The position numbers were made by a program, and so were the translations under genes. 37,809 bases of DNA from an uncultured Lachnospiraceae bacterium. GTDB lineage: Bacteria; Bacillota; Clostridia; Lachnospirales; Lachnospiraceae. The number at the start of each line of letters is the position of its first letter. The stretch's first letter is position 1. Of this stretch, positions 23,753 to 26,128 are shown piece by piece. The stretch is from NCBI GenBank assembly GCA_947385425.1, contig CANDKY010000032.1:1-37809 (forward strand). The letters are read 5' to 3'. The notes under the pieces were generated by a model. The model was not told the origin of the DNA. It made no database searches and saw only the letters and a list, made by a program, of their open reading frames with translations.

Positions 23753-25120
23753 ATGAAAAATATGAAAATGAAAACAAAATTAATAATAGGGTTCCTGATT
23801 CCGATTGTGATTATGGTCTTTAATATCTTATTCGGCAACATTACTACGAAGCATGCAGCAGGGCTTGTAAATGATCCTGCTGCCCAGGAAAGATATGTAT
23901 TGGAGACGAATATCATTACGGTGGTTCTGGCTGTAGTATCTGTAGTCGTCACATTTATGATTGCGGTTGCTTTAATCAGGGTAATCGAAAGGAGTGTGAA
24001 ACAGTTATCGGATGCGGCAAAAGAGATAGCAGCCGGCAAGGTTGATATTCATATGGTGAAATATAATAATGATGAATTCGGTGATTTGGTGGATGAATAT
24101 ACGGCAGTTATCGAAAATATCAAGTCTCAGGCTCATATCGCTGAGGAAGTGGCAGGCGGTAATCTGACCATCAAGGTAGCGCCGAAGTCTGCGGAGGACG
24201 TATTGGGAAATTCCCTGAAGAAACTGGTAGACGATAATTTCCATGCACTTTCCAATATCAGTGATGCCGGTTCCCAGGTAACTATCGGGGCGGCGCAGGT
24301 GGCAAGCGCAAGCCAGGCATTGGCCCAGGGGTCTACGGAGCAGGCGAGCGCAATTCAGGAGATCACAGCATCTATCAGCGAGATCGCTGAGAAGACGAAA
24401 CAGAACGCGGAACAGGCGAATGATACAAACCGCCTTATGTCAGAAGTGATTGACAATGTGCAGAAAGGTAACGTGCAGATGCAGGATATGATGTCTGCGA
24501 TGCAGGACATCAATAAGTCTTCCGAAAGTATTTCCAAGATAATCAAGGTAATTGATGATATTGCATTCCAGACAAATATCCTGGCCCTGAATGCGGCAGT
24601 GGAAGCGGCAAGGGCCGGTGAAGCAGGAAAGGGTTTTGCTGTAGTGGCGGAGGAAGTAAGAAGCCTTGCCGCTAAGAGTGCGGCAGCGGCAGCAGAGACA
24701 GCAGAGCTGATTGAGGATTCTATCGGCAAAGTGAGCGTTGGTTCGGGCATAGCAGACGATACGGCGAAGGCGCTGGAAAAGATCAGCAATACGGCTGTTC
24801 AGTGCGACAGCCAGATTAAGGGTATTGCGGATTCTTCGAATTATCAGGCGACGGCAGTGGCGCAGATTGAGCAGGCCATTGCACAGGTATCACAGGTAGT
24901 ACAGACTAATTCGGCAACCAGCGAACAGTGTGCGGCGGCCAGCGAAGAACTGTCCAACCAGGCAACAAGGATGCGGGATTTGCTTTCCATCTATAACCTT
25001 GGGGCAGGAAACAGCCGTTCTTCAGGCAGTGTGGACAGCGGTTCCTATTCATCTGCCCCGAGCAGGCCGAATGCGAATGAACAGATCATTTCTCTCGGGG
25101 AAGGGTTTGGAAAGTATTAA
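23753..25120 (+). CDS. Methyl-accepting chemotaxis-type receptor with minimal external loop
   Basis: About 455 residues. Two transmembrane segments (about 9-29 and 54-76) enclose only about 24 external residues, too few for a ligand-binding domain. Two HAMP-like segments follow (about 77-130 and 130-165), then a full cytoplasmic signalling domain with the hairpin tip [20 protein letters not shown] and conserved [15 protein letters not shown]. The C-terminus ends in a Ser/Gly/Asn-rich tail without an NWETF-like CheR tether. It may sense membrane state, a cytoplasmic cue or a partner protein. I chose ATG 23753, preceded by AGAGGTAAG (23741-23749), over the overlapping ATG 23738. It is the last gene before the operon terminator. 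Confidence 0.93.
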
Positions 25121-25170
25121 TGCAGGAGCTATTCCGTATTGTTTTCAGATACGGACAGAATAAGAGTAAA

Positions 25171-25206
25171 ATGCAGCCGGCAGGAAGGGAGCCGGCTGTA
25201 TTTTTA
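25171..25206 (+). terminator. Rho-independent terminator of the chemosensory operon
   Basis: CAGCCGGC (25174-25181) pairs perfectly with GCCGGCTG (25191-25198), extendable by three more pairs, around a 9-nt loop. TATTTTTAT follows. It lies 50 bp after the receptor stop codon. Confidence 0.9.
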
Positions 25207-25212
25207 TGCACA

Positions 25213-25385
25213 GGGGTGCGTAGGGAAATTAGCAGCTTTGCTGCACGCACCCCGCGCGGCGAGTAGGGGGAAAAGCCTCCCCTACTCAATTGCACACGGG
25301 CACCCAAAGGGAAAATGTCAGCAAGAGCTGACGGGTGCCTGGCGCGCGAGTAGGGGGAAAAGCCTCCTCTGATACATTTTCACAC
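25213..25385 (+). repeat. Two tandem copies of a structured, covarying repeat
   Basis: Unit 1 (25213-25297) and unit 2 (25298-25385) share one layout. The outer stem is 25213-25221/25245-25253 in unit 1 and 25298-25305/25333-25340 in unit 2. A 5'-side AGGGAAA-type bulge follows, then an inner hairpin (25232-25236/25240-25244; 25317-25322/25327-25332). After a GC-rich linker comes the identical block GAGTAGGGGGAAAAGCCT, then a closing stem arm and CACAC. The outer and inner stems differ in sequence between units but pair in both. Unit 2's last hairpin is weaker. It lies between the chemosensory terminator and a ferritin-like gene. It could be a mobile palindromic repeat or a structured RNA. 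Confidence 0.75.
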
Positions 25386-25413
25386 CAGGGAGATGGATTT
25401 GGGATGCACGGAA

Positions 25414-25441
25414 TTGCAGGAAGCCAATATACTATTATATA
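25414..25441 (+). promoter_or_regulatory. Candidate promoter for the ferritin-like gene
   Basis: TTGCAG (25414-25419), a 16-bp spacer and TATATA (25436-25441). The start would fall close to the ribosome binding site at 25451-25455, leaving a very short leader. Moderate match. Confidence 0.4.
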
Positions 25442-25462
25442 TTGAATGGTAGGAGTTTTTTT

Positions 25463-26008: not shown

Positions 26009-26077
26009 TGTTCGTTTGTAAAGAGACGGGGGATTTTGATTTTGAAGGATGCTGCAAAAGCGGCACAAAGACCGCAC

Positions 26078-26108
26078 GGGAGCAGGGGAGAAAGCCATTC
26101 CCCTGCCC
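26078..26108. repeat. Hairpin resembling the tandem repeat's conserved block
   Basis: GCAGGGG (26082-26088) pairs with CCCCTGC (26100-26106). The surrounding GAGCAGGGGAGAAAGCC matches the repeat block at 25261-25278 (GAGTAGGGGGAAAAGCC) with few changes. It lies between the convergent ferritin-like and DUF3892 genes. It may be a third, decayed copy and could also act as a weak terminator, though no T-run follows on either strand immediately. Confidence 0.4.
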
Positions 26109-26128
26109 GGTTTGGCCGTAAAAAAGTA

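Follow-up and report, generated by a model that had tools for sequence, protein, structure and literature searches.

What are the two tandem repeat units that stand behind an MCP gene in this uncultured Lachnospiraceae bacterium? The preliminary description of the window, by which we mean the whole 37,809-nucleotide stretch of DNA, offered two answers: a structured RNA not yet classified, or a family of palindromic mobile repeats. The mobile half of that choice is supported, since near-identical copies occupy unrelated sites, empty sites exist and species have their own subfamilies. The structured-RNA half is not supported: Rfam has no match, the units lie behind terminators and their stems show no excess of G.T. 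We argue that the units are probably a mobile DNA element of the non-autonomous kind, with intrinsic terminators as its homing targets. They have multiplied into near-identical copies within species, and they insert at ...TTTAT without visible duplication or deletion of the target.

The MCP gene (MCPsignal PF00015, E 8.5e-46) ends at 25120, and a ferritin-like gene lies downstream of the units (Table 1). The sequence from 25160 to 25207 folds at -22.4 kcal/mol, and the insertion point is after 25207. Two consecutive units are present as had been described; they span 25208-25378, and model R1 sets their borders slightly wider than before (84 and 87 nt). The identical block GAGTAGGGGGAAAAGCCT is found at 25261 and 25348. 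The outer stems, said to use different bases and still pair, do pair (GGGGTGCGT/ACGCACCCC and CGGGCACCC/GGGTGCCTG, one G.T wobble), as do the inner stems GCAGC/GCTGC and GTCAGC/GCTGAC. The weaker last hairpin reported for unit 2 is its hairpin B, which has decayed. R1 was built from 9 sequences with window unit 1 among them, so the match of this unit to R1 is by construction. Hairpin B of unit 1 is possibly a terminator mimic. The third unit lies behind the ferritin-like gene (PF02915/PF00210), and its hairpin B (GAGCAGGGG..CCCCTGCCC) and its tail GGTT are recognisable. A 236-nt region, 25205-25440, beats 200 of 200 shuffles in folding on each strand (z -5.1 and -6.9).

Table 1. Terminator and repeat units behind the MCP gene and the ferritin-like gene (positions in the window).
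Feature	Position	Strand	Details
Intrinsic terminator behind the MCP gene	25168..25207	+	14-bp hairpin 25168-25181/25191-25204 (count includes A-tract to T-tract pairing), tail TAT
Unit 1, type T1, complete	25208..25291	+	R1 109.5 bits, E 1.8e-21
Unit 1, GCACA	25208-25212
Unit 1, hairpin A	25213..25253	+	stem GGGGTGCGT/ACGCACCCC, one-sided bulge AGGGAAATTA, inner stem GCAGC/GCTGC, loop TTT
Unit 1, linker GCGCGGC	25254-25260
Unit 1, hairpin B	25261..25287	+	GAGTAGGGG..CCCCTACTC, then AATT; from fold and B-stem covariation
Unit 1, tail AATT	25288-25291
Unit 2, type T2, older	25292..25378	+	R1 48.6 bits, E 1.8e-7; T2 is outside R1's sequences
Unit 2, hairpin A	25297-25341
Unit 2, linker	25342-25347
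Unit 2, hairpin B			decayed
Third unit, weak, decayed	26026..26112	+	R1 30.1 bits, E 0.0031

The units follow one plan: GCACA, hairpin A, a linker GCGCGGC or GCGCGC, hairpin B (9 bp) and finally GATT or AATT, GATT being the 3' tail in most copies inspected. Hairpin A has an outer stem of 9 bp, a one-sided bulge of 10-11 nt with GGAA, an inner stem of 5-6 bp and a loop of 3-4 nt. The length is 84-87 nt in the window and about 84-130 nt across the family. With up to 3 mismatches allowed, a 20-nt core is found 56 times in the genome and its reversed control once, so this recurrence is not chance. The covariance-model search that had been suggested does find further copies, both in this genome and as related units across the Lachnospiraceae. 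R1 has 124 matches at E <=0.1 in this genome (150 of 879 candidates scored); 97 reach E <=1e-5, and the weakest of the 124 may be chance hits. All except 5 could be placed with flanks; these 119 form 94 arrays, 73 single, 17 double and 4 triple. The commonest stem starts of hairpin A are CGGGCACCC (31), GGGGTGCGT (27), GGGGCGCAC (9) and GCCCATGCA (8), and the commonest unit has 5 identical copies. Only one pair among 91 upstream flanks has 20 nt or more in common, which implies that the units did not spread by segment duplication.

The preliminary description took the differing stems as compensatory change. Two copies are insufficient alone for this claim, but 41 hairpin A sequences prove it. 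Hairpin A was excised from 142 distinct units of this and other species, and the length classes 42 and 43 only were used for the counts. In the 43-nt class (41 rows, ungapped) 91.8% of cells are paired, versus 69.2% in shuffles; in slid registers the figure is 47.6% at most. There are 111 cells changed on both sides versus 28.5 in shuffles, and such changes touch every one of the 9 outer pairs and all but one of the 5 inner pairs. The covariation score is 0.591, versus 0.189 in shuffles, which ignore the relatedness of the rows, and at most 0.113 in slid registers, which do not. The weakest measure, the number of pairs with any two-sided change (13), was equalled or exceeded in 13 of 500 shuffles. 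The 42-nt class (35 rows) agrees, with 96.5% of cells paired, 90 two-sided cells versus 28.0 and a score of 0.536 versus 0.205 in shuffles. Hairpin B covaries more weakly, at two pairs (Fisher p 6e-5 and 5e-5, uncorrected for relatedness; 165 of 211 units parsed). Nearly all distinct hairpin A sequences (108 of 118) pair with 4 misfits or fewer in registers with a bulge of 10-11 nt. Conservation lies in the unpaired bulge, which reads A, R, R, G, G, A, A and continues with T/A-rich sequence. Since the stems covary and the bulge is conserved, it is the shape and the bulge that are kept while the stem letters are free.

Is this shape kept as RNA? Selection on a sense RNA at each copy should raise G.T over A.C in the stems. 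The non-Watson-Crick cells are 30 G.T (top strand) versus 41 A.C (p 0.24, with 10 of 118 off-register rows omitted), so the copies are not maintained as RNA, though an RNA may be made. Many of these cells, we infer, stem from ageing copies. Because the units lie behind terminators they would be transcribed only on read-through. The constraint on structure more likely acts on mobility. Rfam 15 has 0 matches at gathering score across the whole window, and its 6 matches at 19 other loci (T-box, S10 leader, Clostridiales-1, 6S, tRNA) are none of them the unit.

The position of the units is the next line of reasoning. The 55 nt upstream of each array were folded and called terminator-like if the last 10 nt hold 6 or more T and the dG is below -8. 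This holds for 67 of 91 own-genome arrays (3 of the 94 have too short an upstream sequence and were left out) and for 84 of 100 units of other species, which come from 96 of 112 loci and of which 5 follow another unit's GATT. Among the controls, 9 of 560 random positions and 632 of the 3389 other occurrences of TTTAT are terminator-like. TTAT stands immediately before the unit in 62/91 and 65/100. Of the 24 of 91 arrays that fail, a few do have a recognisable terminator that falls short of the cut-off; others have a truncated 5' end, an IS interruption or no hairpin, or belong to a divergent class. At L165 (1366-1703) an Rfam T-box ends just before the unit, which lies between the T-box terminator and its gene, so attenuators are also targeted. 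By eye, units at L097, L016 and L375 apparently lie between a T-box terminator and a gene as well; an Rfam scan of L097 and L016 did not match a T-box. Positional conservation between genera was considered and dropped: three loci have the ptsH terminator in common, but with 112 loci in all a hand estimate makes this compatible with chance.

Arrays have an age order. The median identity to the nearest copy is 0.988, 0.921 and 0.738 at array positions 1, 2 and 3 (n=21, 21 and 4). The first unit is closer to copies elsewhere in 18 of 21 pairs and the second in 1 (Wilcoxon p 1.3e-5). Of 70 complete-ended arrays 25 then show a further unit start, and by inspection these following units are 3'-cut (20), whole but old (3), cut by an IS-like repeat (1) or internally deleted (1). 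A 5'-cut unit precedes an array in 0 of 73 cases (null 1/930). From this order it is most likely that new units enter beside the terminator while old ones are pushed off and decay. Selection that spares the terminator could add to this polarity or, together with the age order, could yield it without site-specific entry.

Empty sites can be read by comparing two genomes, G015 and G004, that are 87% identical at one locus. Fourteen elements were retrieved from G015, and for 11 of them the two flanks were joined and used as queries against G004 and G013. In G004, 3 of the 11 sites are empty at the same terminator and 2 are held by another subfamily; the other 6 are no clean test (1 has another repeat, 3 have no comparable terminator and 2 are unmatched). 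The clearest case is L316/L341, where the G004 terminator continues into the same downstream flank and the G015 unit sits exactly between TTTTTAT and that flank, with neither duplication nor deletion of the target. L325/L355 is empty in G004 with both flanks readable, and one T is ambiguous, so at most one T is duplicated. At L321/L343 the G004 terminator has its TTTTTAT and no unit, and the downstream flank is not alignable. L326/L337 and L315/L349 each have a common terminator followed by different unit subfamilies in G015 and G004. Among the remaining comparisons, the G004 hairpin that corresponds to L327 is followed by an unrelated repeat, L319, L323 and L322 have no G004 unit and a terminator that is different or unrecognisable, and the joined flanks of L317 and L320 have no match in G004. 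G013 gives no clean empty site; its L319 orthologue is unit-free with another terminator and the rest are one-sided or other sequence. At L353 (G004:C30) an unrelated tandem repeat (GGCGGCACAAACC..AACGCC) stands behind a hairpin whose G015 orthologue bears a unit. L377 and L378 have identical flanks, which makes them one insertion copied with its surroundings. The MCP site of the window is also occupied in two other genomes, as G005 and G009 have a unit start behind the MCP terminator. The start in G005 is T2-like, with the stem CGGGCACCC like window unit 2, and the contig ends inside hairpin A; G009 has a different stem (CGCCGATGC), and the first unit in the window is T1.

Of the 16 genus genomes, with the own one among them, 10 have R1 matches, as do 17 of all 61 genomes; match counts per genome across the 61 are lower bounds, with at most 74 candidates scored in each. 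There are no matches in G006, G007, G008, G010, G011 and G014, and G008, G011 and G014 are in 1-3 contigs. Across the family, at least 31 of 299 genomes, one per genus, match at E <=1e-5 with at most 15 candidates scored per genome. A pattern scan of named genomes gives at least 111 loci. Most of the 80 listed loci are titled Lachnospiraceae or genera such as Hungatella, Roseburia and Dorea, and a few are titled Ruminococcus, Bacillus or uncultured bacterium. Other genera have near-identical subfamilies of their own, in G019, G337 and G030. The G030 unit is about 130 nt, with two extra hairpins in front, and its hairpin B is a terminator-like hairpin that ends in GAGTTTCGCAAGCGAAACTC and a T-run. 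The strongest hint of target mimicry by hairpin B comes from this 3' end. Plasmids and phages were rejected as a means of spread, as the commonest unit has no match at E <=1e-3 among 72,556 records of plasmids and 50,697 of phages; one viral contig was found by pattern.

How might such a unit move? The absence of inverted ends and of target duplication, together with two strand-specific hairpins, indicates an enzyme that reads folded single strands, and so do the T-rich tetranucleotides at both borders and the keeping of shape over sequence. We propose that a trans-acting enzyme would read folds of single-stranded DNA and that a hairpin plus T-rich tail would be one kind of site. The host terminator with its TTAT would be the site at a copy's left end and at the target, and hairpin B with GATT would be the site at the right end. 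Exchange between the donor's two sites would free the unit, and exchange of the freed unit with another terminator would insert it, much like integron cassettes at attI. New copies would enter between the terminator and older copies, and the newest unit at the terminator would follow from such an exchange. Hairpin A is likely the part bound by the enzyme, by its shape. No circle or donor-target pair was observed.

One can go further and imagine that terminators are genome-wide attachment sites for a single-strand recombination system, with a class of hairpin plus T-tail common to terminators and element 3' ends. The element would bring a target copy with it, so that cassette-like arrays could build up downstream of many genes. 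An enzyme that reads shape would free the stems, and compensatory change would then lead to species-specific subfamilies. We put this forward tentatively, as an idea that has some chance of being right. A control on tail length slightly lowers its probability. The paired window terminator leaves 3 nt unpaired and window hairpin B 4, and an unpaired tail of 0-4 nt is found in 48 of 91 and 59 of 100 cases versus 294 of 560 random places, which is no distinction. Tail length was dropped as an argument for site equivalence because random places look alike.

The obvious candidates for the mover do not track the units across the genus, and we rejected Y1, Y2, RVT_1 and IS110 on that ground. Among the genus genomes, 7 of the 10 with units and all 6 without them have Y1_Tnp. 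This family has 2 matches in the own genome and is missing in G001 (97% complete, at least 50 unit matches), G005 and G012. RVT_1 (E <=1e-10) is missing in G005, G009 and G012, which bear at least 73, 74 and 3 unit matches. Y2_Tnp is missing in 6 of 10 unit-bearing genus genomes and IS110 in G012 and G013, though the absence of an enzyme carries less weight in G005 (81% complete), G009 (83%) and G013 (65%). An autonomous copy that bears a gene between A and B was rejected too. Five B ends that lack a normal A (C100, C98, L168, L196 and L228) were inspected, and none is such a copy; what they show is host genes, units truncated at the 5' end and, at L228, an A into which other sequence has come. 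Nor is there a protein family common to 112 loci, since by inspection the 25 largest ORF clusters are all host families, for instance ABC transporters and housekeeping genes.

Other explanations must be weighed against a mobile element that homes to terminators. A Y1 HUH transposase (TnpA-IS200 or REP-associated) might act in trans on lagging-strand hairpins, and the units would then be a divergent REP-like or minimal IS200/IS605 element. The two hairpins and the lack of inverted ends and target duplication fit the account of this group in PMC6006769, and so do the fixed tetranucleotides, TTAT 5' of the insertion (62/91, 65/100) and GATT at the 3' end. Y1 matches in the own genome are in its favour as well. 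Like REP elements and REPINs with their RAYT (TnpA-REP), the units are short, noncoding and hairpin-forming, have about a hundred copies per genome, combine species-specific sequence with a common structure and presumably move in trans. Like IS200/IS605, they cause no target duplication and insert 3' of a fixed tetranucleotide. However, REP elements have GTAG or GTGG 0-2 nt 5' of the hairpin foot and reach a second stem via a bulge of 1-3 nt (PMC6006769), whereas GT[AG]G is absent at the foot of A (GCRCA) or B (GCGCGGC or GCGCGC) by inspection and the bulge of A is 10-11 nt. The units also differ from REP in being direct tandem units, in inserting behind terminators and in not tracking Y1 genes. 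As for the IS200/IS605 guide, no ATAA or AATC is seen by eye at the hairpin feet, where a guide might still pair in a non-canonical way. We know of no terminator preference among TnpA-IS200 or REP-associated Y1 enzymes. It is doubtful that an enzyme of this kind is the mover. It is unlikely that a reverse transcriptase places an RNA copy of the unit behind terminators as group IIC introns do. These introns insert a short distance behind intrinsic terminators and recognise the single-stranded DNA hairpin by its structure and not by its sequence (PMC3240598), so the landing sites are alike, and 3'-cut units are common (20 of 70 arrays). Yet the units are only about 84-130 nt and have no reverse transcriptase gene and no Rfam match, no group II catalytic core matches at E <=10 in 25130-25460, and RVT_1 is absent from the three unit-bearing genomes named above, of which G005 and G009 are incomplete.

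A structured RNA held by selection, for example a UTR element that acts after terminator read-through, would account for the strong covariation of hairpin A, for orthologous terminators that have a unit in several species (G000, G005 and G009 at the MCP gene; G015 and G004) and for the unit at L165, which lies in a regulated leader. We regard it as quite improbable. The first units at common terminators differ in type or subfamily, as re-insertion gives, G.T is not in excess over A.C, the ORF clusters hold only common host families and distal units decay. Finally, copies could spread among terminators by gene conversion or slippage, in which case no enzyme is needed. There are slippage-like and quasi-palindrome changes inside units (C141, C155) and 15-nt repeats in L318, L324 and L328, but the terminators are unrelated, as the comparison of flanks shows, and the insertion borders at L316/L341 are exact. 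This makes spread without an enzyme highly improbable.

The preferred explanation, a mobile element that homes to terminators, can be set beside other known systems. Integron cassettes have attC sites whose structure is conserved and whose sequence is variable, with core sites RYYYAAC / GTTRRRY, and the newest cassette is at the fixed attI end. The units likewise keep shape over sequence and enter at one array end, which is the terminator here and attI there. They differ in having no ORF and in using many terminators as entry sites instead of one attI, and by inspection the commonest unit has neither AAC nor GTT of the attC core. MITEs are also small, non-autonomous and multicopy, but the units have no terminal inverted repeats (GCACA at the 5' end versus AATCGAG as the reverse complement of the 3' end) and no target duplication. 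BOX elements of Streptococcus pneumoniae are modular, structured and multicopy like the units, while their sequence and module plan are unrelated; to our knowledge they have no terminator preference. The units belong to none of the tested classes, and their kind is a non-autonomous structured mobile repeat. The accessible part of the open-licence literature holds no description of such an element that we could find, and it may be described elsewhere in print.

Here, then, is an abundant mobile element that takes the transcription stop signal as its target and whose own end may imitate that signal. Its copies are a natural record of shape-driven DNA recognition in which stems compensate and the bulge stays. 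Should the enzyme be found, it might prove to be a new DNA recombinase that reads structure and has its landing sites behind genes. The units supply extra hairpins to 3' ends in a major family of gut bacteria, and in one case or more to an attenuator leader. Pipelines for annotation and RNA discovery might mistake them for regulatory RNA.

Several minor observations accompany the family. At G000:C155:9027-9122 hairpin A is now a perfect palindrome, as from template-switch correction of a quasi-palindrome. Four loci (G000:C1:113049, C1:21076, C23:12056 and C68:13812) have hairpin A with a different second hairpin and no upstream terminator, and are possibly a separate or older composite. The units at G000:C135:10943, C174:5438 and C152:1826 are interrupted by the ends of apparently one repeat (AAACAGGCTCTAA / GAGCCTGTTTAAAATC), apparently an IS inserted in them. 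Mini repeats of about 15 nt such as GCACAGAGGTGCGAT lie stacked between the terminator and a full unit at L318, L324, L328, G000:C42:8609 and C164:6714; those in L318 and L328 have a unit-like start and are able to fold into a hairpin of 4 bp with GAT after it. A second hairpin module (CATAGGAAA...CCTATG..AAAAA, often then CCTCCGGAGG) is found at L094, L108, L166, L173, L176, L257 and L370-L376. It stands directly behind terminator T-tracts or a unit's GATT, and in G030 it is fused before hairpin A.
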